Of a DNA stretch of 42,594 nt, positions 7,188-31,595 are shown in pieces (the stretch's first letter is position 1; every line of letters starts with the position of its first letter). The stretch is from an uncultured Bacteroidales bacterium. GTDB taxonomy: Bacteria; Bacteroidota; Bacteroidia; Bacteroidales; Muribaculaceae. Both the position numbers and the translations under genes were made by a program. The stretch lies in NCBI GenBank assembly GCA_902777835.1, contig CACYVC010000021.1, positions 1 through 42,594 of the forward strand. The letters run 5' to 3'. The notes below the pieces were generated by a model that was given only the letters and a program-made list of their open reading frames with translations, did no database searches and was not told the DNA's origin.

Positions 7188-7257
7188 TTGTCAGTTATCA
7201 GTTGTCAGTTATCAGTTGTCAGTTATCAGTCGAAACCTAACACTTAAAACTCATCAC
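7188..7257 (-). repeat. Heptamer array A (10 units)
   Basis: Starting at the base after the stop codon of the first OmpH/Skp gene, the minus strand reads ten consecutive 7-nt units: GTGATGA, GTTTTAA, GTGTTAG, GTTTCGA, then CTGATAA and CTGACAA alternating three times. The AACTGAT/AACTGAC phase shows the AACT core shared with the other arrays of this window. Confidence 0.85.
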
Positions 7258-7773
7258 TTATTTCGAGTAACCTAGTTTCTCTAGCACTTGGTTGCTGATG
7301 TCGATATTAGGTGAGGCAAAGATGATGCTTTGCGATGAGGCACGGTCGAATATCACTTGCAAGCCTCGTTCCTCGCTCACCTTCTTAACGGCAGCATAAA
7401 TATCGTCCTGAATTGGTTTCATGAGCGACTGACGTTTCTTGAAAAGCTCGCCCTGTGGACCAAAATATTTGGCATTGAGCTGCATTGCCTCTTTCTCCTT
7501 GGCAACGATTTCCTCTTCTTTCTTCTTCTTCTGATCATCGGTCAGGAAAACCGATTCGCTCTGATAGTTCTTATACATTGCATCGGCAGCTTTCTTAAGC
7601 TCGTCAACCTCGCGTTGCCAGCGCTGCGACACTTGATTTAACTGCTCATTGGCCATCTCGTAGGCAGGGATGTTCTTAAGGATATACTCCATGTCAACGA
7701 GAGCAAACTTCTGAGCACTGGCTGTTGCCATGCAGGCAACCATCGCCACTAATAATAATGCAAACTTTTTCAT
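7258..7773 (-). CDS. skp: OmpH/Skp-family periplasmic chaperone (first paralogue)
   Basis: 171 residues with signal peptide MKKFALLLVAMVACMATASAQ. KFALVDMEYILKNIPAYE follows, a strand-helix start typical of OmpH/Skp. Next come a strongly charged coiled-coil region (about 45-115, with the run KKKKEEE) and a C-terminal segment including LQVIFDRASSQSIIFASPNIDIS. It is a periplasmic holdase for outer-membrane proteins on their way to BamA. It is the gene directly after bamA in the operon, as in many Bacteroidetes, separated from bamA by 154 nt that include heptamer array B. Confidence 0.9.
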   Translation of the reverse strand: MKKFALLLVAMVACMATASAQKFALVDMEYILKNIPAYEMANEQLNQVSQRWQREVDELKKAADAMYKNYQSESVFLTDDQKKKKEEEIVAKEKEAMQLNAKYFGPQGELFKKRQSLMKPIQDDIYAAVKKVSEERGLQVIFDRASSQSIIFASPNIDISNQVLEKLGYSK

Positions 7774-7850
7774 GTTGTCTATTACGTATCTAAATTTGTT
7801 AATATTTTGCTTGCTTTGACTATTATTTAAGTTAAAAGTTTAATTCTATT

Positions 7851-7927
7851 TTTCAGAAATCAGATGACTATGAACTCTTAACTATGAACTGTGAACTATG
7901 AACTGTGAACTGTGAACTATGAACTAT
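7851..7927 (+). repeat. Heptamer array B (11 units)
   Basis: Eleven in-register 7-nt units on the plus strand: TTTCAGA, AATCAGA, TGACTAT, GAACTCT, TAACTAT, then GAACTGT and GAACTAT variants. The last unit ends at 7927, exactly adjacent to the bamA stop codon (7928-7930, TAA on the minus strand). Confidence 0.88.
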
Positions 7928-10573
7928 TTAGAATTCCTGTCCAAGCACGAAGTGGAAGTTGCTTCCGCCCTTAGTGCCGTAAACCTTGTCGAAGCCATAA
8001 CCCCAGTCGATACCCATCATACCAATCATTGGCAGATAGATGCGTGCACCCACACCAGCCGAGCGCTTGAGGTCAAATGGATTGAACTTCTTAACGCTAG
8101 TCCAAGCGTTACCAGCCTCAACAAAGGCGAGAGCATAGATGGTGGCACTGTTAGAGAGCATAAACGGGAAGTGAAGTTCCATGCCTAAACGAGTGTAGGC
8201 ATATCCTTCCTGGCCGTAAGGAGTGAAGGCACCATTCTCATAACCACGCAGGGCAATGGTCTCGGTAGCATAGGTGTAGCTTCCGCTCATACCGTCACCT
8301 CCCACATAGAAGGTCTCAAACGGCGACTTCAGGTGCTTGTTCCAGCTGCCGAGCAGACCAAAGTCGGCACGTGTCATCAGCACGAGTGTCCATCGACCAT
8401 TGGGGTCGGTAAGTGGAGTATAGGTCTTAGACTGGAACTTGAGTTTCCAATACTCAATCCAGTGATATAGCTCTTTCTTTGAAGCATCGGTACCAGCCTC
8501 GCTCAGTGCCTTCCAGTCTTTCTTACCAAAGAGGTTGGCTGGAGGTGTAGCGTGGAATGAGAGTGTGAACGAACTGCCTCGACGGGTGTATAACGGGTTG
8601 TCGATACTATTGCGTGAGAGAGTAAGTCCGAGCACGAGCGAGTTGCTCACACCATTCTTCATGTAGTACATATATTCCCAGTTCTTGAGGCTGTACCACT
8701 GATAGCTCAGGTCGGCCATGAGTGTAAAGTAGTCATCAGGCCATTTCAGGCGCTTACCAAAACCAACTGTCACACCAGCCATCTGCAGGCACTTACCTGG
8801 GTCGTAGGCATTCTCATAATAGTTGTTGCCATAGTTGCCATAGTAATTGTTATATCCGTTATACATGCCATTGTACATGTAATTGAGATAATAGTTCTGA
8901 TACTGGCTGTTATAGAACGACGAGTTGATGCCAGTGGTGCGGCTGTAGAATGCCGACACTTGCAATGTGTTGGGGCGCTTGCCACCAAACCAGGGGTCAA
9001 CAAACGAGAGACTGTAGGCCTGGTAATACTTGGCATTGGTCTGAGCACTGATTGAGAATGTCTGTCCATCACCCTGTGGGATGATACCTTTATAGGATGA
9101 AGGATGGAAGAGGTTCTTGATAGAGAAGTTGGTAAACTTGAGTGTCACTTTACCGATGATACCCGTCTGTCCCCAACCTGCAGAGACCTCAATTTGGTCA
9201 TTGGCTTTTGACTCCAGGTTAAGTATGATATCTACGGTGCCATCTTCCTCGTTGGGCTCGGGGCGGATGTCCATCTTCTCAGGGTCGAAGTGTCCTGTCT
9301 GGGCAATCTCACGAGCCGAACGCACCAAGTCTTCCTTACTGAAGAGTTCGCCTGGGCGCACACGCAATTCACGGCGTACTACCTTCTCATAGAGTCGGTC
9401 GTTACCATTAATCACTACCTTATTGATGCGTGCCTGCTTTCCCTCATAGATGCGCATCTCAAGGTCAACAGAGTCGCCTTCAATCTTGGTCTCGGTGGGG
9501 ATGAGTTGGAAGAAGAGGTATCCGTTGTTCATATACAGGTTAGAAACGGCATCGTCGTCTTCGCTCACGCGTTTGTTGAGTAGTTTCTGGTTATACACAT
9601 CACCTTTCTCAAATCCCAACACCTCGTTTAGTGTGGCAGTGGGATACACAGTGTTACCCACCCAGTTGATGTTAGAAATATAGTATTTCTTACCTTCATC
9701 AACCTTAAGGTAAACGTCAACCTGTTTTTCGTTGTAGTTAGCTATGCTATCCCACACTATCACGGCATCGCGATAACCATTCTCGTTATATTTGTCGATT
9801 ATTCGCTGTTTGTCTTCTTCATAGTCGGTGCGCACAAACTTCTTCTGGCTGAACCATTTTAAGACGTTAAGAATACCACTCTCGTTGGTTTTCTTCATGG
9901 TGCGCTTAATCTTGCTGTCGCTGAACACATGGTTGCCCTCGATGTAGATCTTGTGGACACCAACTTTTTCATGTTTATCAACCACAACATCAACAATCAC
10001 TTCGTTCTGCTTGCTAAGGTCGGGTTGCTGACGCACTTGACAAGTGGCCTTTTCAAAACCTTTGGCAGCATAATATTTCTCAATAATTTGCTCAATGCGG
10101 TTAGATATGTTTGGTGTGATTTGATTTCCTACCAGATTGCCCAAGCGCTCAGTGATATCCTTCTGCTCGCCTTTCTTCATGCCCAAGAAGTTGACTTTAG
10201 AGATGCGGGGCTGCTGGCGCAGGTTAAACTCAAGCCATGCCTTGTCGCCATAGATTTTCTCCACATTGATCTGAACCTTTGAGAAAAGCCCCTGACGCCA
10301 AAAACGCTTAGCAGCAGCCTTGAGTTCACTGCCAGGAATCTCGATGCGCTGTCCAATGCTTAATCCCGAGTAGCCAATAATGACATAATCCTCGTAGTTG
10401 TCAACTCCTGTAACTTTTATGCCAGCAATCATATACTTGTTGGGAGTGCCGTTAAAGGAGAGTTTTGGATAGAAAATTGTATCATTCAAGGTATATGACT
10501 CTTGAGCACGGCTGAATGTTGTGCCGAGCGTCATAACTGCAAGAAAGACTATTAAGAATTTAATATATCGCAT
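7928..10573 (-). CDS. bamA: Outer membrane protein assembly factor BamA
   Basis: 881 residues: a signal peptide ending FSRAQ, about five POTRA domains (residues 37-450) and a C-terminal Omp85 16-strand barrel ending in the aromatic residue of VLGQEF. Recognisable pieces include GDVYNQKLLNKRVSEDDDAVSNLY and VRPGELFSKEDLVRSAREIAQ in the POTRAs, and the lid-loop region with LRGYENGAF. BamA folds and inserts beta-barrel proteins into the outer membrane with help from Skp, encoded just downstream. A striking Tyr/Asn-rich loop (about residues 553-590) interrupts the barrel. The gene follows uppS by 26 nt and is clearly in the same operon. Confidence 0.97.
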   Translation of the reverse strand: MRYIKFLIVFLAVMTLGTTFSRAQESYTLNDTIFYPKLSFNGTPNKYMIAGIKVTGVDNYEDYVIIGYSGLSIGQRIEIPGSELKAAAKRFWRQGLFSKVQINVEKIYGDKAWLEFNLRQQPRISKVNFLGMKKGEQKDITERLGNLVGNQITPNISNRIEQIIEKYYAAKGFEKATCQVRQQPDLSKQNEVIVDVVVDKHEKVGVHKIYIEGNHVFSDSKIKRTMKKTNESGILNVLKWFSQKKFVRTDYEEDKQRIIDKYNENGYRDAVIVWDSIANYNEKQVDVYLKVDEGKKYYISNINWVGNTVYPTATLNEVLGFEKGDVYNQKLLNKRVSEDDDAVSNLYMNNGYLFFQLIPTETKIEGDSVDLEMRIYEGKQARINKVVINGNDRLYEKVVRRELRVRPGELFSKEDLVRSAREIAQTGHFDPEKMDIRPEPNEEDGTVDIILNLESKANDQIEVSAGWGQTGIIGKVTLKFTNFSIKNLFHPSSYKGIIPQGDGQTFSISAQTNAKYYQAYSLSFVDPWFGGKRPNTLQVSAFYSRTTGINSSFYNSQYQNYYLNYMYNGMYNGYNNYYGNYGNNYYENAYDPGKCLQMAGVTVGFGKRLKWPDDYFTLMADLSYQWYSLKNWEYMYYMKNGVSNSLVLGLTLSRNSIDNPLYTRRGSSFTLSFHATPPANLFGKKDWKALSEAGTDASKKELYHWIEYWKLKFQSKTYTPLTDPNGRWTLVLMTRADFGLLGSWNKHLKSPFETFYVGGDGMSGSYTYATETIALRGYENGAFTPYGQEGYAYTRLGMELHFPFMLSNSATIYALAFVEAGNAWTSVKKFNPFDLKRSAGVGARIYLPMIGMMGIDWGYGFDKVYGTKGGSNFHFVLGQEF

Positions 10574-10599
10574 ATTTGTGTCGTAATGTTTTGTCGTGT

Positions 10600-11364
10600 T
10601 TAATTTGACGTCAATTGCTCACTGGTTTTGCCATAGCGACGCTCACGTTGCTGATAGCTGATGATAGCCTCGCAAAAATCATCTTTAGTGAAATCGGGCC
10701 AAAATTTGTCGGTGAAATACAGTTCGCTGTAAGCAATCTGCCACAGCAGGAAGTTGCTGATGCGCTCATCACCTGCAGTGCGTATGAGAAGATCGGGATC
10801 GGGCATTTTGCTCGTAGCTAGTTGTTGAGAGAATAAGTCGGCATCGATAGAGTCAATCTCAATTTCTCCATTGGCAGCCTTGCGTGCCAGCGACTTGCAA
10901 GCTTCAACTATCTCCCAGCGCGACGAGTAGCTCAATGCCAAGCACAGCACCAGACCGGTGCAGTGCGAGGTGTCGTCGATGCACTTGGCAAGACGCTGCT
11001 TAGCAAAGTCGGGCATACGCTCCAGGTCGCCAATGGCAGTGAGCCGCACGTTGTTCTTGATAAGATCGGGCGTCTGCTGCTCTATAGAGACCACCACAAG
11101 GTTCATGAGTGCGTCAACCTCATCTTGAGGACGGTTCCAATTCTCGGTCGAGAAGGTATAGAGCGTCAGGTAACCTATTCCCAGCTCACTAGCAATCTCA
11201 GTGATTTGCCTCACTGTGGTCACCCCATTCTCATGGCCGATAGAACGCATCAGTCCTCGCTGTTTTGCCCAACGTCCATTGCCGTCCATAATGATGGCGA
11301 CATGCTTGGGAAGCCGAGTGCGGTCTATTTTATCTATCAATGACATATCTCTGTTGTTAGCCAT
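10600..11364 (-). CDS. uppS: Isoprenyl (undecaprenyl) diphosphate synthase UppS
   Basis: 254 residues. The cis-prenyltransferase motifs are all present. [17 protein letters not shown] holds catalytic Asp27 and the diphosphate-binding residues, [15 protein letters not shown] follows, and the C-terminal box [20 protein letters not shown] and [12 protein letters not shown] completes the site. The enzyme condenses isopentenyl diphosphate onto farnesyl diphosphate to make undecaprenyl diphosphate, the lipid carrier for peptidoglycan and surface glycans. The ATG lies 5 nt downstream of the preceding stop and the gene is 26 nt before bamA, indicating tight cotranscription. Confidence 0.97.
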
Positions 11365-11369
11365 TTAAA

Positions 11370-12065
11370 TTACTCAATATAATGACATTTCACGCAGCGC
11401 TTGCTGAACTCATAAGTCACAGTGAACATTGCCACCGAATACCAGTCGGTGTTCTTGGCGATGCCATGAATGTAGCCATAGAGGTCGGTGATGCCGTCGA
11501 GCTTATCGCTGAACGACTTGCGCATCGTGAACTCAAAACCCAAGTTGAGACGTTCTTTCAACCTGAACTTGACACCTGCTCCCAGAGGCAGCACCATGCC
11601 AAAACTTGTTTTGCCGTTGGCAAACGACAGTTCCGCGCCAAGACCTGCAGTGAGGTAAGGTGTGATGCGCTTGTAGTGCTTGTAGCGAGGGCCATCGCCA
11701 AAGTGGAAGAAGTTAAATTCCACCTGTCCTGCCAGGTCCACCACATGAGCGGTGAAGCTATACTGCTGGTTTAAAGGGAACTTTGACTCTAAGTTCTTGC
11801 TGTCTCCAGCAAGGTTCACATACAAGAGGTTACCCTTAAAAGCGAAGCGCGAGTTCATATTGTAACGGAATATTCCGCCACCTGCCACTCGAGGCATCTT
11901 ATACATGTTGCTCTTGTTAACATCGCCCAAATAACCTGTCACACCCACTGCTGGACCCACCTCAAAGCGATAGGTCTGGCTCCAGGCGCACATCGTGCCA
12001 ACAAGCACCAGGGTCATTATCATTGCGGTTTTTTTTATCATTTGGCTATCAACTTTAATGTTCAT
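11370..12065 (-). CDS. porG: DUF6089 outer-membrane beta-barrel protein, PorG-like
   Basis: 231 residues from the ATG at 12065; an internal ATG at 12041 (MIKKTAMIMTLVLVGTMC) starts the signal peptide proper and is a plausible alternative. The mature part begins YRFEVGPAVGVTGYLGDVNKSN and shows alternating aromatic beta strands typical of a small barrel, including LTAGLGAELSFANGKTSFG and LNLGFEFTMRKSFSDKLDGI. In Porphyromonas gingivalis the gene at this place (upstream of uppS, bamA and ompH) is PG0189, PorG, an outer-membrane component of the type IX secretion system. The PorG assignment rests on synteny and general form. Related DUF6089 proteins also occur in species without that system. Confidence 0.65.
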   Translation of the reverse strand: MNIKVDSQMIKKTAMIMTLVLVGTMCAWSQTYRFEVGPAVGVTGYLGDVNKSNMYKMPRVAGGGIFRYNMNSRFAFKGNLLYVNLAGDSKNLESKFPLNQQYSFTAHVVDLAGQVEFNFFHFGDGPRYKHYKRITPYLTAGLGAELSFANGKTSFGMVLPLGAGVKFRLKERLNLGFEFTMRKSFSDKLDGITDLYGYIHGIAKNTDWYSVAMFTVTYEFSKRCVKCHYIE

Positions 12066-12144
12066 GCTTTATAATAAATAAAAACGCAGTTTAGTAATGA
12101 AAAAGTATATTTTCAATGAGCAACAAGCCATTAATTAATCTTTT

Positions 12145-13641
12145 TTAGAATACCGGTTTATAGGTGAGACGACGCAACACACCCTCCCACACGTTGTTAA
12201 GTGCAGTACCATTAGCAGCATAGCCTCCAAACAGGTAAATGTAGGAGCAATCCCATTCGGTAACTGGAGTCACTTGTCCTGGGTCATAGGCATTAAGGCG
12301 GGGAGCGTTAGCTCTGTGCTGGCGGTCATACACAAAAATCTGCGCGTCGCTAAAGGCAGGAATCATCGATGGCAGTTGCAGTCCGCCTTCGCCCTTGCTC
12401 CAGTTGATGCCCTGGTTGCGAGAGATATAGGTTGTCGTGTTAAGACTGCCGTCGTCAAGCGTGCCGCCCATCACCATCCAAGTCACACGCTTGTTGTAGA
12501 TGAGCGAAGTAGATGAGCGGGAATAGGTGTAGTAGCTAAATAGCGTGGCGCCACTCATTGAAGGCAGCACACTGTTGTTGCTTACCATGCCCCACTGTTC
12601 ACCATCATATCCCCACACGGCATTACTCAACGCGCCGCTGGCAAGCACTCCGCCCATGCACATCGCCTGTTGGCTGGCAGTCCATTCGTTGTTTGCCATT
12701 ACCAACTGACTCATGCCATTGATGGGGAAGTTGCTGTCGATCTTCACAGGCACAAAACCTGCTCGTTGAGGATACTCATCATGAACCCACGACGTGCCAT
12801 CGTTCTTAACTCCCAGAATACGATCGTTATAAGCGCCAACAATAGTGTTCCATGCCACGCCACAGTGGGTCCAGCTTGCTCCCATATCGGTGCTGCTATA
12901 GAGCTCACCAGTCTCATCAAGTATATAAAGAGCTTGAGGTGTGGCGGTAAAGCTCGACACATCGGGAACAAAGGGGAACGAAATCTCCGTCTTATTCCAA
13001 GTTCCAGCAAGAGGATCTTCAGCGTTGCTGAGCACATAATTGCCATTATCGTTAGCAAGGCACATGAAATCACCATTGATCATTACGGTTTTCGAGTCCT
13101 GTAGCGTCGAGGTCACATTGGGCAGGTCGCGACGACGGCTCTGGTCCCACACAATCACATCGGGTTCCTCCTTATGGACATTGACTTTCACTTTATAGTC
13201 ACGGGTGTTCTCTCCGTCGCGGGAAATCACGCGCAACGTCACGTCGCCAGTGAAGTCAATTGAGTCATTGCCGTTATTCCTATAGGTGATAGTAGTATCC
13301 TTCTGCACTGTTCCGTTCTTCACGATAAACAACCTCTCTGCCACAGTGCTGGCACTGGTAACATTCACGCACAACGCTGTAACACGGGTGCCATAAGGCA
13401 GCGAGTCAGCATTATATATCAAGCCACGCTCCTGATCAATTGCAAATGTCACCGAGTCGAGACCACTGGCAATCTTAGTGTTGGCCTTCAGCGAGAATGC
13501 CGAAACAAGTGTTGATGAATAGGAATAAACACTGTAGTTGTCGTCGATCGTGCTCTTGGGTTCATCTTTCTTGTTGCATGCCGCAACAGTCGCCGACAAC
13601 AACAGAATAAGCATCAAATATAATGGAAAGTGTCTGTTCAT
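12145..13641 (-). CDS. DUF6242 domain lipoprotein
   Basis: 498 residues. The N-terminus MNRHFPLYLMLILLLSATVAAC ends in a lipobox with the acylated Cys22, so the protein is probably a membrane-anchored lipoprotein. Residues about 35-165 form the Ig-like N-terminal part of DUF6242 (YSSTLVSAFSLKANTKI, then YRNNGNDSIDFTGDVTLRVI). The rest is a beta-propeller-like region with sialidase-type blades such as YILDETGELYSSTDMGASW and THCGVAWNTIVGAYNDRILG. Function is unknown. It has its own promoter at 13668-13675 and is the first gene in this direction. The 79-nt gap to the DUF6089 gene shows no terminator, so it may head the bamA operon. Confidence 0.8.
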   Translation of the reverse strand: MNRHFPLYLMLILLLSATVAACNKKDEPKSTIDDNYSVYSYSSTLVSAFSLKANTKIASGLDSVTFAIDQERGLIYNADSLPYGTRVTALCVNVTSASTVAERLFIVKNGTVQKDTTITYRNNGNDSIDFTGDVTLRVISRDGENTRDYKVKVNVHKEEPDVIVWDQSRRRDLPNVTSTLQDSKTVMINGDFMCLANDNGNYVLSNAEDPLAGTWNKTEISFPFVPDVSSFTATPQALYILDETGELYSSTDMGASWTHCGVAWNTIVGAYNDRILGVKNDGTSWVHDEYPQRAGFVPVKIDSNFPINGMSQLVMANNEWTASQQAMCMGGVLASGALSNAVWGYDGEQWGMVSNNSVLPSMSGATLFSYYTYSRSSTSLIYNKRVTWMVMGGTLDDGSLNTTTYISRNQGINWSKGEGGLQLPSMIPAFSDAQIFVYDRQHRANAPRLNAYDPGQVTPVTEWDCSYIYLFGGYAANGTALNNVWEGVLRRLTYKPVF

Positions 13642-13667
13642 TTTCTTTCTTTATTAGAAATAACTTG

Positions 13668-13675
13668 CAAAGTTA
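13668..13675 (-). promoter_or_regulatory. Promoter upstream of the DUF6242 gene
   Basis: The minus strand reads TAACTTTG, a perfect -7 element, 27 nt from the start codon. It is the only good promoter element seen upstream of the DUF6242 to Skp cluster. Confidence 0.65.
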
Positions 13676-13888: not shown

Positions 13889-13914
13889 CAATCACTTTCA
13901 TATCACGCCATTCT

Positions 13915-16603: not shown

Positions 16604-16701
16604 GAGTATCGAAGATTGAAGATAATTAAATCCTTAATCTCTAATCCAGTTTTTCGTTCCTCATTCAAACTATGAACTATGAACTGTGAACTATGAACTA
16701 T
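16604..16701 (+). repeat. Heptamer array C (14 units), overlapping the end of the DUF2284 gene
   Basis: Fourteen in-register 7-nt units: GAGTATC, GAAGATT, GAAGATA, ATTAAAT, CCTTAAT, CTCTAAT, CCAGTTT, TTCGTTC, CTCATTC, AAACTAT, then GAACTAT/GAACTGT. The last two units overlap the 3' end of the DUF2284 frame and supply its stop codon. The segment TTCGTTC-CTCATTC-AAACTAT resembles the junction in arrays E and F. Confidence 0.8.
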
Positions 16702-17239: not shown

Positions 17240-17344
17240 AAAACTGAAAACTCAAAACTGATAACTGTGAACTATGAACTGTGAACTATGAACTGTGAAC
17301 TATGAACTATGAACTATGAACTGTGAACTGTGAACTAAAAACTA
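17240..17344 (+). repeat. Heptamer array D (15 units), filling a whole intergenic gap
   Basis: Fifteen consecutive units: AAAACTG, AAAACTC, AAAACTG, ATAACTG, then TGAACTA/TGAACTG variants and a final AAAACTA. The array starts at the base next to the DUF2284 start codon (17237-17239) and ends on the last base of the TolC-like stop codon (17342-17344). The spacer between the genes is therefore nothing but heptamers. Confidence 0.92.
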
Positions 17345-18685
17345 TTCCCCAACTGCTTGCTTATATTCCAATAGTTTATTTTGATATTCTGCAAAGGCAT
17401 CGGTGCGCTTGTCGCACGCCTGCTGGTAGAGCAGTTGAGCCTCAAGAAGGTCGCTCATCTTCGACATTCCTGCATTGTAGTAGTCACGGTTCACACGCAG
17501 GTTTTCTGTTGCCTGCTCAATGCTTAGTTGAGCTAGCTGCAGCTGGCTGTAAGCCTCCTCCACACCGTTCCAGGCATTCTGCATGCGTATGATGAGCAAG
17601 TCAGTATTATTAGCGAGCTGCTCTTGTGCCTTTTGATGCTCTAATTTGCTGCGCTTTACAGCATGGCTGCCTCCCCACCATCCAGTAATGGGGATGTTGA
17701 CAGTAGCAAACACCATCCCAAATGTTTGGTTCTTCTCGAGCAGGTTATGGAAATTATATCCAGCGCCCACTGCTACAGTGGGCAGGTTCTTGCCCCTCGC
17801 CATCTTCTCCTGCAGACCTGTAGCCTCCACCTGCTTGTCGAGCAACTTATACTCTGGTGTGTTAAGCACAGCAGTCTGGTGGTTTTGCTTTAATGCCATA
17901 GGCGGAACAATCTCGGCATTGTAGGTTATCACAAAACTAGTGTCGCGCAAGCCACAATACTGGCACATCAGCATACGCACCAGCGAAATGCCATTGTTAA
18001 GTTTCAACTTTTGGCTCGCCACATCATTCTGGCGAAGTTGCACTTGCAACAAGTCGTTCCTGATTGCTACACCAGCTCTAATCGCCACATCCACGTCTTT
18101 ATAGATGTCGTTGAGCAATGTTTCCACCGCCTGCACCGTCTTCATTTTCTCTTGGAGCGTGGCAAGTTGCCAAAAATATTGCTCAGCGGTCTTTTCTACC
18201 TCATTTTCTGATAGTTCAAGCTGCAAGCGGCTCACGTCTTCACCCACCTTTGCCAGACGGTTTCCGTTGATGATTTGACCTCCAGCGAACACTGGCTGCA
18301 CAGCCATCACCGAAGCTATGGTGCCTTTTTTCATCATCGATATGTCAATGGGATTGGCAAGAGAAGCAAGTGCCTCGGGAGGAAAACTCTGAGCAAGCGC
18401 CATTCCCAACTCTGGAGAAATCATTTCTGACGGGTTAATAGTCATCTGCGCCATGCCCTTGTTGGCTCTGAATGTCAAGCCCGTAGCGCTCACATCAGGG
18501 AAATACTTCGTAAACGCCTCCTTGCGCTGCAACTGCGCCGCCTCAATGTTGTGATGCGCAGTGCGTATTGCGATATTGTTGTGCCGTGCCGAGTCACAAA
18601 TCTGCTCAAGAGTGTAACAATTCTGAGCATTTGCCACAAAAGCAAAACCTCCCAAAACTGTAACTATAGTCAATAACTTCTTCAT
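17342..18685 (-). CDS. TolC-family outer membrane efflux protein
   Basis: 447 residues with signal peptide MKKLLTIVTVLGGFAFVANAQ, followed by CYTLEQICDSARHNNIAIRTA, the usual opening of outer-membrane efflux proteins. Two OEP repeats of long alpha helices flank short barrel segments. The second repeat contains LLDKQVEATGLQEKMARGKNLP and the C-terminal MQNAWNGVEEAYSQLQLAQ. In the family, trimers form the outer-membrane channel of tripartite pumps. The gene follows the RND pump in the same operon, with heptamer array E between them. Its stop codon TAG is the edge of array D. Confidence 0.93.
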   Translation of the reverse strand: MKKLLTIVTVLGGFAFVANAQNCYTLEQICDSARHNNIAIRTAHHNIEAAQLQRKEAFTKYFPDVSATGLTFRANKGMAQMTINPSEMISPELGMALAQSFPPEALASLANPIDISMMKKGTIASVMAVQPVFAGGQIINGNRLAKVGEDVSRLQLELSENEVEKTAEQYFWQLATLQEKMKTVQAVETLLNDIYKDVDVAIRAGVAIRNDLLQVQLRQNDVASQKLKLNNGISLVRMLMCQYCGLRDTSFVITYNAEIVPPMALKQNHQTAVLNTPEYKLLDKQVEATGLQEKMARGKNLPTVAVGAGYNFHNLLEKNQTFGMVFATVNIPITGWWGGSHAVKRSKLEHQKAQEQLANNTDLLIIRMQNAWNGVEEAYSQLQLAQLSIEQATENLRVNRDYYNAGMSKMSDLLEAQLLYQQACDKRTDAFAEYQNKLLEYKQAVGE

Positions 18686-18688: not shown

Positions 18689-18821
18689 TTTTTCGTTTAT
18701 CGTTGATCGTTTTTCGTTATTCGTTTATCGATTATCGGTGATCGGTGGAAAGTGGAAAGTGAAGTCTCGTTCCACGTTCAAACTATGAACTGTGAACTAT
18801 GAACTGTGAACTATGAACTAT
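18689..18821 (+). repeat. Heptamer array E (19 units, composite)
   Basis: Nineteen in-register 7-nt units fill the gap between the TolC-like start codon and the RND stop codon. The order is eight CGTTTAT/GATCG-type units (TTTTTCG, TTTATCG, TTGATCG and others, ending GTGATCG), two GTGGAAA, then GTGAAGT, CTCGTTC, CACGTTC, and finally AAACTAT and GAACTGT/GAACTAT units. The RND stop codon (18818-18820) lies in the last unit. The block order matches array F. Confidence 0.92.
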
Positions 18822-21943: not shown

Positions 21944-22111
21944 TTTATCGTTATTCGTTTTTCGTTTATCGTTTTTCGTTTATCGGTGATCGGTGGAAAG
22001 TGGAAGGTGGAAGGTAAAGTCTCGTTCCAAGTTCAAAACTGTGAACTATGAACTCTGAACTCTGAACTATGAACTCTGAACTCTCAACTCTTAACTGTGA
22101 ACTCTGAACTA
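21944..22111 (+). repeat. Heptamer array F (24 units, composite)
   Basis: Twenty-four in-register units without a slip: TTTATCG/TTTTTCG types (six), GTGATCG, GTGGAAA, two GTGGAAG, GTAAAGT, CTCGTTC, CAAGTTC, AAAACTG, and ten TGAACTA/TGAACTC/TCAACTC/TTAACTG units. The array begins 9 nt beyond the RND start codon and ends on the last base of the adaptor stop codon (22109-22111). The block order is the same as in array E with different unit numbers. Confidence 0.93.
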
Positions 22112-24508: not shown

Positions 24509-25399
24509 ATGAAAAAATCATTACTATTACTAATGTGGGCATGGGCAATGGTTGCCGGTGCACAGCAGGTGACGGTGACGAGCACCACGCCGCTGCTGCG
24601 CGACATTGAGCCAGCCTTCTACCCCACCCTAAGCCCCAGCGGCGACCGCCTGCTATACAGCGATGTTGATGCTCGCGGCCTTAAGATGCTTGACCTGGGC
24701 ACACATGCTGTCACCACTATCAGCGAGCAGACTGGTGCAGGCTTCGACGCCAAGTGGAGCAACGACGGCCAAGTCTATTATATCACCAGCAAGGTTGACG
24801 AGAAAAGCCGACTGGTATTCCGCACTGGCATGCGCTACGACCTCAAGCGCCAAGCCAGCGACGTGGTGCTTGAGGCACAACACGGAGCTGTGCACCTCGA
24901 GACAGGAACTCAGGGCATGGCTATGAACGGTGAGAGCCACACCTTTGCCACCGCTCCCAAGCGTGGCGTGAGCGTCTATACCACTGGTTCGCAACTCGTT
25001 GTAAACGTTGACGGCAAGGAGAGCCGCTACTCTCCCGTCGAGAGCTATGCCGGCTATCTGTGGTCGAGTGTCTCTCCCGCTGGCGACAAAATCGCCTTCT
25101 ATGCAGCCGGCCGTGGCATCGTGGTCACCACCCTGCAAGGCAAGGTGCTTGCCGAGCTAGGCAACTACGAGATGCCGTGCTGGTATAACAACGACTACCT
25201 CGTTGCCCAAAATGCCAGCGACGACGGATATCAATATACCTCGTCACAGATTCTCCTTCTCAAAGCCGACGGCACTTCGCGCCATGAACTCACCCCCAAG
25301 ACGTCGATGACCATGCAGCCCACCGCTGGCGGCGGCAAGATTGTATATACCACCATCGACGGCAATCTCACAATGATAACATTAGACATTAACGAATAA
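24509..25399 (+). CDS. TolB-like/PD40 beta-propeller periplasmic protein
   Basis: 296 residues with signal peptide MKKSLLLLMWAWAMVAGAQ. The mature part has repeated WD40-like PD40 blades: YPTLSPSGDRLLYSDVDARG, FDAKWSNDGQVYYITSKVDE, SSVSPAGDKIAFYAAGRG and PTAGGGKIVYTTIDGN. The propeller resembles the C-terminal half of TolB, a periplasmic partner of the Tol-Pal system, but there is no TolB N-terminal domain. It may bind a protein or glycan. The stop is 13 nt before the secreted amidase, so the two are probably cotranscribed and may work together. Confidence 0.8.
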   Translation: MKKSLLLLMWAWAMVAGAQQVTVTSTTPLLRDIEPAFYPTLSPSGDRLLYSDVDARGLKMLDLGTHAVTTISEQTGAGFDAKWSNDGQVYYITSKVDEKSRLVFRTGMRYDLKRQASDVVLEAQHGAVHLETGTQGMAMNGESHTFATAPKRGVSVYTTGSQLVVNVDGKESRYSPVESYAGYLWSSVSPAGDKIAFYAAGRGIVVTTLQGKVLAELGNYEMPCWYNNDYLVAQNASDDGYQYTSSQILLLKADGTSRHELTPKTSMTMQPTAGGGKIVYTTIDGNLTMITLDINE

Positions 25400-25412
25400 C
25401 ACTGCAACAACT

Positions 25413-28013
25413 ATGAAAAAGTTTTTCTACACATTAGCATCGATGATGGTTGTTGCAGTGGCAATTACTGCAATAGCCGGCAACAACTACATGCCGCACG
25501 TATATATCAACCCTGGCCACGGCGGACACGACAGCGACGACCGCAACGTGGTGATTTATCCCTTCGCCGCTGGCGACACTTCGGGTTACTGGGAGTCGAA
25601 CTCCAACCTCAAGAAAGGTTTTGCCCTCAACAACTGCCTGAGGGCTAAGGGCTACACCACCAGCATGTCGCGTGTAGCAAACCAAACCGCCAACGACCTG
25701 CCACTCTCCACAATCGTGGCACTGTGCAACAGCAGTGGCGCCGACATCTTCTATTCCATTCACAGCAACGCCACCGGAGTGCCAGCACGGCGCAACCACA
25801 TCCTTGCCCTCTACCGAGGACCTACGGGGTCGCCAGTGGTAGCCAACAGCGACGTGCTCGCCCTGAATCTAGTGCAACGCCTGCAGGTGAACGCCGCCGC
25901 AGTGTGGACCAGCAACTACCAGATTGCCGGTGACTTTACATTCTATCCCGACTGGAATAACGCCGGTTTGGGCGTGCTGCGCGGCAACCAAGCTGTGTCG
26001 ATGCTCAGCGAGGGCTCTTTCCACGACTACATCCCCGAGACCTATCGCCTGATGAACGACAACTACTGCTGGATGGAGGGCTGGAACTTCTCGCTCGGCG
26101 CCGACGACTACTTCGGCTACTCGTTCTTCGGCAAAGGTGCTGTGGCTGGCAACATTCGCGATAACCGCATGCCACGCGTAATCAACGACTTCATCATGTT
26201 TGGTGACGACAACCGCGAGCCAGTGAGCAACGCCACCGTCATCCTAATGGACATGAACGACACGCCACTCGACACCTGCTACACCGACAACATGTATAAC
26301 GGCATCTACGCCTTCAAGATGCTCGACCCTGGCAACTACAAAATCATGGTAGAGCAAGAGCACTACTTCTCTCAGACCAAGGAGGTCACCATTCAGGCAA
26401 ACCATTCAAGCTACTGTAACTTCGACCTGGCACGAGTGCGCGAGACTCCTCCCGAGATCATCAACTACTCGCCAGTGTGGCACGAAGGCGACGCACCACT
26501 CAAGGCTAACACCCCCGTGGTCTTTGAGTTCAACTGGGACATGAATACCGAGGCCACCGAGGCAGCGTTCCACATCGAGCCAGCAGTGGAAGGACACTTC
26601 CGCTGGGAAGACAGCAACTATCGCATGGTGTTTGAACCCAACGATGCCTACGACATCAACACCCTCTACACCGTGACTCTCGACACCACTGCCGAGCACG
26701 GGGGAGGCATGAGGATGCAAGAGCCATTCACCCTCCAGTTCAAGACCACCTACCGCAAGTATCTTGAGGTAATCGACATCTTCCCGCACCAGGGCGACGA
26801 GGTGCACTACAAGAATGCCATCATTGAGCTGCGCACCGACTCAATGCTCAACAACAGCTACTACTATGACAAGATTGTCCTTACCGACAAAGACGGCAAC
26901 GCCCTCACCTACAACCGCCGAAACACCAAGACGGGCAAGAACACCGACCCATTTGGTTTCATTCGTATCCCTGTTGCCAGCACCATGACTCCTGGCGAGG
27001 AATACACACTCACCATCTACAAAGAGATGAGCGACACAGCAGGCATCCACCTGCCCGAGACCATCGTCAACAAGTTCACTGCTGTTGACGCCGGCGAGGA
27101 GAAACCCGAGACAACAGTGATTGAAGATTTTGAGAATGCCAGCACGTTCTCGGTAGCAGACGTCTCGGCAAATACCGAAGTTGCTTTGAGCGCATCAACC
27201 GACCGCCTCTTTGGCAGCAAGTCGCTGCAAATCAAGATAAACGACCCTTTATCGCTTGAAGCAGGAATATACAGCACATCTTTTGATGATGCAATTATTA
27301 ATGGCAATGAAGAGCTTTCACTGCATGTCAACGGTGACATGAGCAATTTATACCTCAAGATGCATCTCAGAAGCACCGATGAGAGCCAAGAAGATGCTTA
27401 CATCGACTTCGGCAAGATCGACTTCCACGGATGGCGATACATCACTGGCAAAGGAAATCTCAACCCCAACAAGACTTACAAAATAGTGATGATTGAAACC
27501 GACAGCGATGAGGACGACCCAATATGGAGCGCCACCATCAAGCTCGACAACCTGCTCAAGGGACAGAAGACGGCAATACAAGGTGACGTCAACGGAGATG
27601 GCTTAGTCACTGCTGCCGACATCACCGAGCTATATAACTACTTGCTCAACAACGACGACAGCCACATTGTGAATGGCGACCAAACCGGGGACGGCATTAT
27701 CACAGCTGCCGATATCACTGCCGTTTACGGCGTGCTGCTCGGGCCAAGCAATGTGGCACCTGCCATTGACCCCGTTCCCGAACCCGCTGCCAACAGCAGC
27801 ATCAAAGTGGGTCCCATCCCCTCGAGCGACTACATCATGGCTAGCGCTGCCAGCTACATCATGGGCGTGGAACTCTACGACATGAGCGGCAACCTCGTGG
27901 CGCGCAACGGCGGCAACTACATGAACGTGGGCAGCATGCGCGACGGCCATTATATATTAAAGGTGTATACCGGCAACGAGATCTCAACCCACCATGTGGC
28001 AGTAAAACACTGA
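25413..28013 (+). CDS. Secreted N-acetylmuramoyl-L-alanine amidase with dockerin-like repeats and type IX-like C-terminal tail
   Basis: 866 residues with a signal sequence. The Amidase_3 domain (about 28-225) has all expected zinc and catalytic residues: His36 in NPGHGGHD, Glu61 in YWESN, His117 in SIHSNA and Glu200 in LSEGSFHD. Such enzymes cut the bond between MurNAc and the L-Ala of the stem peptide. A CarboxypepD_reg-like beta domain (about 245-345), Ig-like Big_5-type domains (about 350-560) and a jelly-roll-like region (about 570-715) follow. Two dockerin-like calcium loops (GDVNGDGLVTAADI and GDQTGDGIITAADI, about 725-780) precede a C-terminal tail with LYDMSGNLV and GHYILKVYTGN, resembling type A Por sorting domains. 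It is probably surface-exposed. Confidence 0.88.
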   Translation: MKKFFYTLASMMVVAVAITAIAGNNYMPHVYINPGHGGHDSDDRNVVIYPFAAGDTSGYWESNSNLKKGFALNNCLRAKGYTTSMSRVANQTANDLPLSTIVALCNSSGADIFYSIHSNATGVPARRNHILALYRGPTGSPVVANSDVLALNLVQRLQVNAAAVWTSNYQIAGDFTFYPDWNNAGLGVLRGNQAVSMLSEGSFHDYIPETYRLMNDNYCWMEGWNFSLGADDYFGYSFFGKGAVAGNIRDNRMPRVINDFIMFGDDNREPVSNATVILMDMNDTPLDTCYTDNMYNGIYAFKMLDPGNYKIMVEQEHYFSQTKEVTIQANHSSYCNFDLARVRETPPEIINYSPVWHEGDAPLKANTPVVFEFNWDMNTEATEAAFHIEPAVEGHFRWEDSNYRMVFEPNDAYDINTLYTVTLDTTAEHGGGMRMQEPFTLQFKTTYRKYLEVIDIFPHQGDEVHYKNAIIELRTDSMLNNSYYYDKIVLTDKDGNALTYNRRNTKTGKNTDPFGFIRIPVASTMTPGEEYTLTIYKEMSDTAGIHLPETIVNKFTAVDAGEEKPETTVIEDFENASTFSVADVSANTEVALSASTDRLFGSKSLQIKINDPLSLEAGIYSTSFDDAIINGNEELSLHVNGDMSNLYLKMHLRSTDESQEDAYIDFGKIDFHGWRYITGKGNLNPNKTYKIVMIETDSDEDDPIWSATIKLDNLLKGQKTAIQGDVNGDGLVTAADITELYNYLLNNDDSHIVNGDQTGDGIITAADITAVYGVLLGPSNVAPAIDPVPEPAANSSIKVGPIPSSDYIMASAASYIMGVELYDMSGNLVARNGGNYMNVGSMRDGHYILKVYTGNEISTHHVAVKH

Positions 28014-28054
28014 GCCAAATCATTATAGTTTAAGAGGGTGTGCCTGAATTTTGC

Positions 28055-28097
28055 AGTGGACCCAAAAAGTTTTTTGTCTAACTTTTTGGGTCCACTT
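28055..28097 (+). terminator. 17-bp perfect hairpin after the amidase gene
   Basis: Arms at 28055-28071 and 28080-28096 (core TGGACCCAAAAAG) form a 17-bp perfect stem with an 8-nt loop. Only a short T run follows (TTTAATAA). It probably ends the amidase transcript, but the sequence also resembles insertion-sequence termini, so it could be a remnant. Confidence 0.55.
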
Positions 28098-28167
28098 TAA
28101 TAAGAACCATTAACTTTAATTGGCGCTTTTTGTGTAAATCACATATTCACAAATGAGGTTTTCATAT

Positions 28168-28207
28168 CTGTAAGTTTCATTTAACACTCAAAACTTCATA
28201 CTTACAG
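28168..28207. repeat. Inverted repeat upstream of the dusB promoter
   Basis: CTGTAAGT (28168-28175) and ACTTACAG (28200-28207) are perfect 8-bp inverted copies 24 nt apart. They lie about 20 bp upstream of the -7 element of dusB, a reasonable place for a regulator, but no protein is known to bind here. Confidence 0.4.
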
Positions 28208-28228
28208 TTAAGGTTGTGTTTTTTATTG

Positions 28229-28236
28229 TATCTTTG
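28229..28236 (+). promoter_or_regulatory. Promoter of dusB
   Basis: TATCTTTG, a perfect -7 element, 21 nt upstream of the start codon. Confidence 0.7.
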
Positions 28237-28256
28237 CAGTCTAAAACATTAAAATA

Positions 28257-29246
28257 ATGAAAATAGGAAACATAGACTTAGGGACACGTCCAGTGATGCT
28301 GGCGCCAATGGAGGATGTGACTGACGTCTCGTTCAGGCAGATTTGCCGTGAACAGGGTGCCGACATGGTTTATACCGAGTTTGTGAGCGCCGACGCGGTG
28401 ATTCGCAACATCAACAGCACCCTGCGCAAGATGGTTATCAACCCTGGAGAGCGGCCAGCAGCCATCCAGATTTATGGACGCGAGGTGATGCCTATGGTAG
28501 AGGCCGCCAAGATTGCCCAAGAAGCAAAACCCGAAGTCCTCGACATAAACTTTGGTTGCCCTGTGAAGAAGGTTGCGCACAAAGGCGCTGGCGCAGGTAT
28601 GCTGCGCAACATTCCGCTGATGCTCGAAATCACCCGCGAGGTAGTGAAGGCTGTTAACCTGCCCGTCACTGTCAAGACGCGCCTAGGCTGGGACTGCAAC
28701 AATAAGATTATCGTGGAACTTGCCGAGCAACTGCAGGACTGTGGCATAAAGGCGCTGACTATTCATGGGCGCACACGCTCCCAGATGTATAACGGCGAAG
28801 CCGACTGGACTCTCATCGGCGAGGTGAAGAATAACCCGCGCATGACCATCCCTATAATTGGCAACGGCGACATCACCAGCGCCGAGAAACTTGCCGAGTA
28901 CTACGACCGCTATGGTGTGGATGGCATAATGGTGGGACGTGCCTCGATTGGCGCTCCATGGATCTTCCGTGAGATGAAGCAGTATTTGACCAATGGCACC
29001 ATACCCGAAATTACCCGTCACGAGAAGATGGCGCTGCTGCGCCGACAGATTGACGAGAGCATTGACCGCATTGACGAGTATCGCGGCATCCTACACATTC
29101 GCCGCCACCTCGCCGCCACCCCGCTATTCAAAGGCATCCGCAACTTCCGCGAGACCCGCATAGCCATGCTTCGCGCCAACACCAAAGCCGAACTAACGGC
29201 CATTCTCGACCACATCGAGAATGAAATCTTTCCTAATTTAGATTAG
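28257..29246 (+). CDS. dusB: tRNA-dihydrouridine synthase B
   Basis: 329 residues with a TIM-barrel flavoprotein pattern: MLAPMEDVTDVSFRQICREQ at the start, catalytic Cys101 in INFGCPVKKVAHKGAGAGML, then TVKTRLGWD, TIHGRTRSQMYNGEADW, IIGNGDITS, and the FMN-phosphate site GVDGIMVGRASIGAPW. It reduces uridine to dihydrouridine in the D loop of tRNA using FMN and NADPH. The overall motif set fits DusB best. It has its own promoter and is followed by a short gap with a small hairpin repeat and the rpoN promoter. Confidence 0.95.
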   Translation: MKIGNIDLGTRPVMLAPMEDVTDVSFRQICREQGADMVYTEFVSADAVIRNINSTLRKMVINPGERPAAIQIYGREVMPMVEAAKIAQEAKPEVLDINFGCPVKKVAHKGAGAGMLRNIPLMLEITREVVKAVNLPVTVKTRLGWDCNNKIIVELAEQLQDCGIKALTIHGRTRSQMYNGEADWTLIGEVKNNPRMTIPIIGNGDITSAEKLAEYYDRYGVDGIMVGRASIGAPWIFREMKQYLTNGTIPEITRHEKMALLRRQIDESIDRIDEYRGILHIRRHLAATPLFKGIRNFRETRIAMLRANTKAELTAILDHIENEIFPNLD

Positions 29247-29278
29247 AGCATAAAAAAACAAGTTTGGGCGTTGTTGAT

Positions 29279-29304
29279 GTATTGCGCCGCAAGAGCGGTG
29301 TTCA
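29279..29304 (+). repeat. Dispersed hairpin repeat, copy 1
   Basis: A 26-nt element (GTATTGCGCCGCAAGAGCGG plus TGTTCA) that recurs at 42362-42387 with only two differences. The core CGCCGC-AAGA-GCGGTG folds as a 6-bp hairpin with one G-U pair. It lies between dusB and the rpoN promoter. Confidence 0.7.
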
Positions 29305-29357
29305 CACTATCAAGGTAAAAATAATGCCTTTTTCTTGCTATTTTTTCTCAATTCCTT

Positions 29358-29365
29358 TATCTTTG
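29358..29365 (+). promoter_or_regulatory. Promoter of rpoN
   Basis: TTG (29335-29337), 20 nt, then TATCTTTG: a good -33/-7 arrangement. It lies 23 nt upstream of the ATG at 29389 and inside the longer frame that starts at 29335, which is therefore rejected. Confidence 0.75.
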
Positions 29366-29388
29366 TAAACTCAATCGAAAGAAATGCT

Positions 29389-30864
29389 ATGAGTGAGACT
29401 AACGATTTTAAACAGATACAGAAGCTGAGTCAGGAAATGGTTCTCAAGCAGAAGGCGTCGCAGATGCAAGTGATGCTCGGTCAGCTCATCGAGATGAACG
29501 ACGATGAGATAAAAGACCGAATCGAGATGGAACTTGACGACAACCCTGCCCTTGAAGAGATCGATGGTACCAACGACGAATTCAGCAACGATAATGACGA
29601 TAACCAGAATCGTGATGACCCCTTCGACACTGCTTTCTCTCAGGCCGATGATGACGACTACGACCGCAACGACGACGGGTTAAGCTACATCCAAACCAAG
29701 CGTCGCCAAAACATCGACAATGACGTGTACCGTCCACCAGTGGTCAACGAGGTGTCAATGTTTGAGGTGCTTATGAACCAAATCAGGGAACGAGATCTCG
29801 ACGAGCGGCAACTGCTTATTGCTGAGTACATCATCGGCGAGATTGACGACGACGGACTGCTACGAAGCCCCATAACCTCAATATGCGGAAACATCATATC
29901 TAAGGAGAACGAATTTGTCACACCACAAGAGGTGCAAGACGTGCTCGAAGTAATTCAAGATCTGGAACCCGCAGGTATTGGCGCAACCAGCACACGAGAG
30001 TGCATATTGCTGCAAATTGAGGACATGAAAGGCGAGAACATCGAAATAGCACAGATTGCCCACGCCATCGTTGATAAACATTTCGAGGAATACGAGCGTC
30101 ACCACTACGACAAGATTCTCAATGCTTTAAACATTGATGAGGAAACATTCCACAAAGCCGACAAAATCATCAAACGCACAAATCCCCGTCCTGGAAACAT
30201 CTTCAGCACTGGTGAACGAATGAGCAACGCACAGCACATCACTCCCGATTTTGTGATAAGCAATGAAGACGGCAAGCTTAACCTCACTCTTGTCAACGAC
30301 ATTCCAGAACTTCAGATTTCTGAAAGTTACGAGATTGAATATCAGCGCATCGCAAAACGCGCTTCTACTAGCGAGAGCGACAACGATATACTCATCAAGC
30401 GACAATATGAGCGAGCAACCAGTTTCATCGAGATGCTCAAGATGCGGCAAGAGAAACTCTACAACATTATGAAGGCCATAATGATAAAGCAACAGGAGTT
30501 TTTCATCACGGGCGACACAATGACCCTCAAGCCATTGGTGCTCAACGATATCGCCGAGATGACAGGATATGACGTGTCAACCATCTCACGAGCAAGGCAA
30601 AACAAATATGTAGATACAAATTGGGGCATATTCGACTTGAAATACTTCTTTGGCAACAGTCTTGACGATAGTGAGACATCTGCAACTGCCGTAAAAGAGA
30701 TTATCAAAGAACTCGTTGAGAATGAAGACAAGAAAAAGCCTCTCAGCGACGAGAAACTCTGCAACATCCTGCAAGAGCGAGGATACAACATCAAGCGCCG
30801 AACAGTGGCAAAATACCGCGAGAACCTCCTTATCCCTGTCGCAAGACAAAGAAAAACATTGTAA
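29389..30864 (+). CDS. rpoN: RNA polymerase sigma-54 factor
   Basis: 491 residues from MSETND; the 18 upstream residues of the open frame are excluded because the promoter lies there. Region I (QEMVLKQKASQMQVMLGQ, about residues 12-50) is the activator-interacting part. An acidic region II follows (about 50-100, rich in Asp/Asn), then the core-binding region (RDLDERQLLIAEYIIGEIDDDGLL). The DNA-binding region includes VLNDIAEMTGYDVSTISRA, and the C-terminal RpoN box reads IKRRTVAKYRENLLIP. Sigma-54 recognises -24/-12 promoters and needs an AAA+ enhancer-binding protein; none is encoded in this window. Confidence 0.96.
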   Translation: MSETNDFKQIQKLSQEMVLKQKASQMQVMLGQLIEMNDDEIKDRIEMELDDNPALEEIDGTNDEFSNDNDDNQNRDDPFDTAFSQADDDDYDRNDDGLSYIQTKRRQNIDNDVYRPPVVNEVSMFEVLMNQIRERDLDERQLLIAEYIIGEIDDDGLLRSPITSICGNIISKENEFVTPQEVQDVLEVIQDLEPAGIGATSTRECILLQIEDMKGENIEIAQIAHAIVDKHFEEYERHHYDKILNALNIDEETFHKADKIIKRTNPRPGNIFSTGERMSNAQHITPDFVISNEDGKLNLTLVNDIPELQISESYEIEYQRIAKRASTSESDNDILIKRQYERATSFIEMLKMRQEKLYNIMKAIMIKQQEFFITGDTMTLKPLVLNDIAEMTGYDVSTISRARQNKYVDTNWGIFDLKYFFGNSLDDSETSATAVKEIIKELVENEDKKKPLSDEKLCNILQERGYNIKRRTVAKYRENLLIPVARQRKTL

Positions 30865-30875
30865 TCTTTCACTCA

Positions 30876-31526
30876 ATGGTTTCAAGAATAAAAAGAATAA
30901 GAATTCTTGACGAGATGGCGAAGTTCATCTCCACTATGCTCAGTCCTCTGCTCACTCCCACCTATAGCACACTAATGGCACTCAGCATATCACCTAAACT
31001 CCTCGACGTCACAGGAGACAGGTTTAAATTGCTGCTCATCATTTTTGCCTTGACCTGCATCTTCCCAATGATAACCATTGCTGTACTGCACAACTTCAAG
31101 GTTATCAAAGACAAGCGCTTGATAAGCCGCAAAGAGCGACTCATCCCTTATATCACCGGCACAATCTACTATGGCGTGGCAGTATTTCATGTGATTTACT
31201 CTCATGAACCTACATGGCTGGTGATGTTCTTTGCAGGAGGTGCATTGGCATGCCTCATTTCGACCATTGTCAACTTTTGGTGGAAAATCAGTGCTCACAT
31301 GGCCGGCATAGGAGGACTACTTGCTCTGTTGTGGCAAATAGACGCCATGGAACTTGAAATCATTAGCAGACCTTGGATGGTAGCTTATATTCTCATTGCC
31401 ATCATCCTTTCGGGCTTGCTTGGCAGTGCTCGCCTTCTCCTAAAACGTCACACCCTGCCACAGGTAATCGCCGGATTCCTAAATGGCTTGATTTGCGTCT
31501 CACTAATGATGCGACTCTTTGGATAA
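30876..31526 (+). CDS. PAP2-like integral membrane protein (degenerate active site)
   Basis: 216 residues with about six hydrophobic segments. The layout resembles membrane PAP2 phosphatases. The stretch KISAHMAGIGG corresponds to the PSGH region, and SARLLLKRHTLPQV to the SRX5HX3D region. The last motif has Gln at the position of the usual Asp, and the first motif is reduced to KDKRLISRKERLIP. Activity on lipid phosphates is therefore uncertain. The start at 30876 is 11 nt after the rpoN stop, so the two are likely cotranscribed. An internal ATG at 30915 is an alternative start. Confidence 0.65.
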   Translation: MVSRIKRIRILDEMAKFISTMLSPLLTPTYSTLMALSISPKLLDVTGDRFKLLLIIFALTCIFPMITIAVLHNFKVIKDKRLISRKERLIPYITGTIYYGVAVFHVIYSHEPTWLVMFFAGGALACLISTIVNFWWKISAHMAGIGGLLALLWQIDAMELEIISRPWMVAYILIAIILSGLLGSARLLLKRHTLPQVIAGFLNGLICVSLMMRLFG

Positions 31527-31560
31527 AAGATAAAATGGCTAGATTTTTTTAGAAGAACGG

Positions 31561-31595
31561 AAAACTCTGAACTGTGAACTAAAAACTATGAACTA
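31561..31595 (+). repeat. Heptamer array G (5 units), overlapping the ispG start
   Basis: Five in-register units: AAAACTC, TGAACTG, TGAACTA, AAAACTA, TGAACTA. The ispG start codon (31588-31590) spans the last two units, so the repeat supplies the ATG and the codons for Asn-Tyr. It is the only array next to plus-strand genes and the only one at a 5' end. Confidence 0.75.

Follow-up and report, generated by a model that had tools for sequence, protein, structure and literature searches.

A dispersed family of modular, oriented heptamer arrays between the genes of a Bacteroidales bacterium

The preferred reading of the data, with a probability of about one half, is that the intergenic heptamer arrays of the window (the whole stretch of 42,594 nucleotides that was analysed, contig C21 of the 2.89-Mb draft genome G000) belong to a dispersed, modular and oriented family, the composite members of which were copied into gene junctions and then changed by slippage of one unit at a time. 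The same blocks (A, B and C) recur with A first, array ends are anchored at codons, many arrays are missing from orthologous sites, and lengths change by whole units. Many gene gaps of this gut-type bacterium tend to be filled, from stop codon to next start codon, with slowly changing heptamer repeats. Arrays are frequently missing at the same site in relatives and therefore look like small pieces of DNA arising or spreading between genes by some copying process. Heptamer repeats occur in several phyla and have no accepted origin or function; here the recurring blocks, codon-anchored ends, replicated strand rule and polarised gain make slippage, composite copying and selected leaders testable. 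The A-first order, the codon-anchored ends and the array-free sites in relatives go beyond what was seen in an earlier, sequence-only reading of the window.

All seven arrays described in that reading were confirmed, with lengths of 70, 77, 98, 105, 133, 168 and 35 nt, although an exact multiple of 7 depends partly on the end points chosen. Identity per array was 0.62-0.86 at lag 7 and 0.16-0.31 at lags 6 and 8. TRF assigned period 7 to 7/7 arrays (for the array at 16604, only across 16668-16701). Scanning the window lag by lag, with identity ≥0.8 required over 28 nt, gave 8 clusters at lag 7, zero at lags 2-6, 8-11 and 13, and, beyond multiples of 7, 1-3 clusters at lags 12, 15, 24, 27, 30 and 39. 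A scoring scan gave 8 lag-7 segments, and none in a locally shuffled copy, so the ordered heptamers of the sequence-only reading stand out from shuffled sequence. Other scoring lags were 6, 9, 12, 15 and 18 (2-3 each) and 19 (1), mostly multiples of 3, the likely source of which is a set of low-complexity CAACAA/AACAAC repeats within an ORF at 4390-4850. The weakest array, 31561-31595, had a TRF score of 40 and was dropped at the score threshold of 16 of the array scan. Searching the window and four loci with Rfam returned just one tRNA and one 5S rRNA, both in the window and away from the arrays. The chance that the arrays are assembly artefacts is practically nil: all genomes compared are drafts (one per species), but the arrays lie within long contigs and the same units occur in other assemblies.

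The array at 7188-7257 (minus strand) consists of TTGTCAG/TTATCAG units, which are of AACTGAT type on the transcribed minus strand, and lies between two minus-strand OmpH-like genes. An A-type array at 7851-7927 (minus strand) sits directly 3' of the TAA stop (7928-7930) of a POTRA-domain gene, which may be BamA-like in our own reading. In the convergent gap at 16604-16701 (minus strand), drifting heptamers lead to a terminal A block, the TAG of which is the stop of the DUF2284 gene (16691-16693). The A-type array at 17240-17344 (minus strand) fills its gap, from the TAG (17342-17344) that closes the outer-membrane efflux gene to the DUF2284 start. Two arrays are composite. That at 18689-18821 (minus strand) occupies the interval from the AcrB-like gene, which ends in TAG, to the start of the efflux gene, with A at 18781-18819, B at 18746-18757 and C at 18693-18737; that at 21944-22111 (minus strand) extends from the TAG that ends the HlyD-like gene to a point just 5' of the AcrB-like start, with A at 22037-22110, B at 21994-22012 and C at 21948-21992. 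The short AACT-unit array at 31561-31595 (plus strand) points at the GcpE gene, and the ATG of the ORF (31588-31590) lies within an AACTATG unit. TAG stop codons are supplied by the array in 4/7 cases. Pfam matches of the adjoining genes were two OmpH-like, POTRA-domain, TPM, DUF2284, outer-membrane efflux protein, AcrB-like, HlyD-like and GcpE; a 216-aa ORF 5' of GcpE had no Pfam match.

The family extends over the genome. One 18-nt pattern had 200 matches in G000 and its reversed control 0; the AACT pattern had 200 in G000 vs 0-21 in each of 60 relatives, and the C pattern was present in 7/101 genomes. Twenty G000 stretches chosen for arrays (205,920 bases, scoring scan) contained 52 lag-7 segments; lag 9 had 10, lags 4-6 and 8 had 0-1, and the local shuffle contained no lag-7 segment. 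Relatives were sampled at 80 loci (1,075,452 bases) matching the window efflux gene (17342-18685; 65-76% identity; mostly Prevotella, Prevotellaceae or Bacteroidales records), which yielded 118 lag-7 segments, 28 at lag 8 (the second commonest short lag there) and 1-11 at each remaining lag between 4 and 13, with 1 lag-7 segment after shuffling. Lag 7 was clearly foremost in the G000, G001 and G011 samples, and the small G096 sample (71,635 bases) had 4, 4 and 2 arrays at lags 7, 9 and 8. Ten G000 stretches not chosen for arrays held 14 arrays per 200,000 bases, which extrapolates to roughly 200 in the whole genome.

Blocks were named on the sense strand of the composites as A (AGTTCAY), B (TTCCAC) and C (CGATAAA), and were surveyed in 31 stretches of G000 that total 448,514 bases; 20 of these stretches had been selected because they carry AACT arrays. 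Fourteen clusters held more than one block type and A was present in 13; in 13/13 clusters holding A with B or C, A came first and the others followed on the same strand. A fixed A-B-C order was rejected, as B and C occur in either order and only 'A first' holds. A trailing inverted A block was present in 2/14 multi-block clusters.

Relative to genes (simple longest-ORF calls), the 54 A arrays were distributed over tandem (39), divergent (5), convergent (4) and long (6) gaps, with 0 inside ORFs. In tandem gaps, 17 of the 24 sense A arrays began within 8 nt of the stop codon and 9 overlapped the TAG of the stop, and 9 of the 15 antisense A arrays (AACT toward the gene) lay no more than 16 nt from the start codon. 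TAG was the stop of 13/21 genes that have an A array there, vs 46/301 for others (Fisher p 4.9e-6, a value that overstates independence because arrays of one genome share descent). Stops on the sense vs antisense strand numbered 22 to 3 at loci of TolC relatives, 13 to 6 in G000, 2 to 1 in G096 and 3 to 1 in G011; an excess of sense-strand stops as a general selected feature was rejected, the ratio being reversed in G001 at 4 to 10.

On a first look at C arrays, 16/16 tandem-gap hits were on the sense strand. Further C arrays were gathered by pattern in G000, and a set from G001 served as replication, of placement and not of origin because G001 shares ancestry with G000. Counted over distinct tandem gaps, C was on the sense strand in 13/13 of the earlier G000 stretches (recounted) and 8/10 of the new set, 21/23 together, and in 18/19 in G001, where 17/18 ended within 25 nt of the start. 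The exceptions to the strand rule were 2/10 in the new G000 set and 1/19 in G001, plus 2 C hits in convergent gaps. Hits excluded beforehand were 1 edge hit in the earlier stretches; 8 inside ORFs, 2 convergent and 1 edge in the new G000 set; and 1 divergent and 1 inside an ORF in G001. Seven of the 8 in-ORF hits of the new set were in two short opposite-strand ORFs, which we take as spurious. The eighth falls close to the N-terminal end of an ORF of 437 aa; this array has an equal number of units in G000 and G001 and is in-frame and open in both (L302 2077-2107, L293 2646-2676). The C end is rich in A (0.54 A in the 20 nt upstream of 8 starts vs 0.43 upstream of 293 others), and the reverse complement of the CGATAAA repeat is T-rich and without a stop codon.

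Orthologous gaps were anchored on their flanks (69-93% identical), giving 38 comparisons with G001 and G096 for 27 arrays; arrays that could not be anchored were not counted. The relative had no lag-7 array in 23 comparisons, another array in 9 and an array sharing at least 3 unit classes in 6, under a strict sharing rule (the two L302 arrays and L313:2070, scored as 'other', have C units visibly in common with G001). For 18/27 anchored arrays, one or both relatives lacked a lag-7 array. An orthologous gap was available for 12/16 arrays (23 comparisons), and the window arrays at 16604, 18689, 21944 and 31561 had no anchored gap in the compared loci. Three window gaps could be compared. The gap at 7188-7257 was scored 'no array' although G096 has an 8-nt AATAGTGG repeat there (L148 about 1285-1322); the site of 7851-7927 is without a lag-7 array in G096, with flanks about 91% identical; and the gap holding 17240-17344 is 106 nt in the window vs 25 nt, array-free, in G001. 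The clearest gain is L128:6704-6836, where G000 has a 137-nt A-B-C array between two genes. At the same junction in G096, G001 and G094, the two genes overlap by 4 nt (ATGA), the TGA stop of the upstream one running into the ATG of the next. In G000 the upstream ORF extends into the array, which encodes its tail and stop (...DSSQFIVHSS-TAG). No target duplication was seen at this site against G096, the sole clean site.

This turnover bears on the proposal, made for TAACTGA repeats, that a ribosomal or RNA-binding protein binds the repeats and sets translation, which would make the arrays selected regulatory sites. The AACT arrays facing start codons and the A-rich C blocks near starts would fit it, as would the 3/57 AACT arrays (about 0.6 expected) that run into a TANNTTTG promoter-like box, which we take to be the Bacteroidota -7 box. 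With 23/38 orthologous gaps lacking a lag-7 array, such a role appears unlikely for the family. Six examples of AACTGAT-type arrays that run at constant spacing into a promoter-like TANNTTTGCA box are at L119, L127, L166, L209, L214 and L216; in the sampled stretches the count was 3/57.

The commonest unit classes in G000 are AACTATG, AACTGTG, AAACGAT (= CGATAAA), AACACTT, AAAAACG, AAGGTGG and AACTGAT. Units drift evenly along an array, identity between neighbours being 0.76 at lag 7 and 0.69 at lag 14, down to 0.33 at lag 77. A genome-specific unit vocabulary was considered and dropped (sharing within vs between four genomes 0.296 vs 0.245, reached by 95/1000 label shuffles). The register was said in the sequence-only reading to persist where the unit changes, and this is mostly so: the offset changes in 15/48 G000 array regions, with 51 changes vs 1016 neighbour mismatches, a count in which selection of arrays at lag 7 hides breaks and spacer inside some regions adds them. 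It was further argued there that slippage would be expected to disrupt the register, a point of little weight because whole-unit slippage preserves it. That total length is selected to be a multiple of seven, one of the two explanations then offered, was not supported: 10/38 length differences between orthologous gaps were multiples of 7, with 5.4 expected, so species do not keep to multiples of seven in total length. The other, addition of units by copying, fares better in part. Units are gained and lost in 7-nt steps; two composite window arrays aligned to each other differ by internal indels of 7, 7 and 1 nt, and at L313 the start codon that has a 362-nt array in G000 has a short C array in G001, counted by eye as 5-6 units, and the G000 gap is longer by 308 nt, or 44 units. 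The family also exceeds what decayed independent tracts would give; the copying mechanism itself is putative.

We hold it possible, rather than probable, that purely local replication slippage accounts for the arrays, with a polymerase that favours 7-nt slips and selection that only purges arrays entering coding sequence, so that ends come to lie at stop and start codons. Loops of at least 5 nt escape mismatch repair. Smooth drift between neighbouring units, whole-unit indels, the many different units among relatives, the 8-nt repeat in an orthologous gap and the lag-8 segments beside those at lag 7 in relatives (28 vs 118) are all consistent with it. The available text of PMC4679880 and PMC4692102 cites a proposed polymerase property favouring 7-nt slips and, along with a 2007 study of long SSRs, the idea that 7 nt is the contact length of the polymerase. 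Local slippage leaves unexplained the recurrence of A, B and C blocks, A first, at unlinked loci, and the presence of a whole 137-nt composite at a junction that is ATGA in three relatives.

A-first blocks at unlinked sites and a whole composite at an overlap kept by three relatives point to composite copying, and the 7-nt steps to later slippage. Under the copying reading, composites would have entered gene junctions by a route leaving no visible target duplication, for which template switching, or ectopic copying between arrays through shared 7-nt homologies, are candidates. Growth and shrinkage by one-unit slippage would have followed, with point mutations drifting the units. Arrays may be kept in operon gaps because the oriented A end supplies stop codons and the C end an A-rich leader for translation starts. 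One TAG per CATAGTT unit means that all three frames are stopped within 21 nt, and translation in Bacteroidota starts without Shine-Dalgarno sites. The strand rule would fit selection for expression, with translation terminated at the A end and an A-rich C end, whereas the C repeat in the opposite orientation is T-rich and has no stop codon in its sequence. The arrays would thus be mostly neutral or mildly useful spacers under an orientation constraint, and not a regulator with a known partner. Copying into operon junctions, if real, would offer a route to new intergenic regions and to the uncoupling of overlapping genes. A stronger form of this, which we offer tentatively, is that the composite may act as a gene spacer that is portable and strand-specific and reaches operon junctions by copying, with no transposase involved, providing stops at one end and a start leader at the other, and splitting overlapping genes with both still expressed; it would then be a dispersed element with its placement written in codons. 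Against the copying reading stand the lack of any mover found, the variable order of B and C, the exceptions to the C strand rule, the sharing of units within genomes, not significantly higher than between them, and the reversed stop excess in G001. No recent copying was caught, since even the two most similar composites found share only 84% identity over 135 nt.

It is very unlikely that the arrays are of MITE or REP type and owe their spread to a Y1 (RAYT) or other transposase, even though they are dispersed and missing at orthologous sites, with no target duplication seen, a common core precedes the C block in some copies, and L223, one of the three G000 Y1 genes, is flanked on each side by heptamer arrays. 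Y1 transposase as the mover was rejected: 20 long Y1 genes of relatives had 0 arrays in 98,453 surrounding bases, and 30 short ones had 6 in 91,477, or 0.066 vs a background of 0.098 per kb. Next to L221 are other palindromes, and terminal inverted repeats do not characterise the family, 2/76 G000 arrays having an inverted partner within 160 bp. The common core, GATTGYA...CACTGTCTTC, lies just 5' of some C blocks (22 rows; L191 1640-1690, L192, L193, L194, L202, L207, L213 and others). A hairpin in this core was rejected, as stems seen by eye in single copies gave no helix clearly above column shuffles (8/200 reach it; 19 copies of the 22 rows, 3 omitted), and a compensatory reading of the stems was not upheld by the same test.

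Heptamer arrays as such are of a known kind. The heptameric STRR repeats of cyanobacteria are tandem, intergenic heptamers, and the window arrays resemble them in these general respects. The closest known kinds are the TAACTGA and GGGAATC repeats. In the available text of MacGregor 2015 (PMC4679880), TAACTGA direct repeats are reported from Beggiatoaceae, Cyanobacteria and five Bacteroidetes, mostly as one unit in 2-6 copies, forward toward the start codon, with indels between two close Cyanothece strains that are mostly 7 nt. Like the present arrays, they are intergenic, mixed with related heptamers, and in many cases end just 5' of start codons; the AACTGAT class itself occurs in 12/68 G000 arrays. 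Against that text, the window family differs in its several unit types, drifting A-first composites, A at stops and C at starts. On a TAACTGA-like forward orientation close to a start codon the counts are mixed: 9/15 AACT arrays read toward a start within 16 nt, and 24/39 tandem-gap A arrays are in the opposite orientation. The sequence-only remark that placement differs holds only in part for known heptamer repeats, since AACTGAT units (the TAACTGA of Beggiatoaceae) occur in G000 and TAACTGA repeats also end near start codons in Beggiatoaceae. GGGAATC / GGGGA(C/T)T repeats of Xanthomonas and Nostoc are described in the available text of PMC4692102 as G-rich, with a proposed G-quadruplex, and about equally on both strands relative to genes; they are alike in being dispersed, mostly intergenic, nearer the end of the upstream gene and different between related species. 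A GGG run is absent from the A, B and C units and from all the commonest G000 units listed above. Inverted pairs are common in GGGAATC repeats, according to the same text, and in some relatives of G000.

Two other element types share features with the family, as far as the accessible text of their descriptions goes. The BrickBuilt MITE of Porphyromonas gingivalis (PMC4596501) is likewise a dispersed intergenic Bacteroidales element with a tandem repeat, but it has a 23-nt unit, a leader and tail, inverted-repeat ends and distances of 49-591 nt from coding sequences, whereas the units of the window family are 7 nt long and often directly adjoin codons. Also dispersed, and forming mosaics, are the intergenic REP / BIME modules that go with RAYT transposases (PMC3733652); the window family differs in that it needs no palindrome and showed no association with Y1 genes, L223 in G000 being the one exception. 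Families derived from heptamers are mentioned in the available part of a satellite survey (PMC6749651). A literature search of mostly open-access titles and abstract openings returned no such arrays in Prevotella and no stop-to-start composite.

Other repeats were also noticed. A dispersed repeat of ~90 bp at L128 5828-5919 has dozens of copies in G096, G001, G081 and G094; ARAGORN did not call it a tRNA and it had no Rfam match. Inverted partners within 160 bp were present for 27/118 arrays of relatives, and for 1/118 in a control stretch, with examples at L085 6467-6588 and 7669-7803, L109 7679-7796, L084 7682-7784, and L044 14131-14242 and 14939-15046. L044 carries the same inverted-pair element twice, in opposite orientations. 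Several pairs lie in frame within AcrB- and efflux-type ORFs around a short core like AA-x4-ADANN, and are reminiscent of the Rickettsia palindromic elements.
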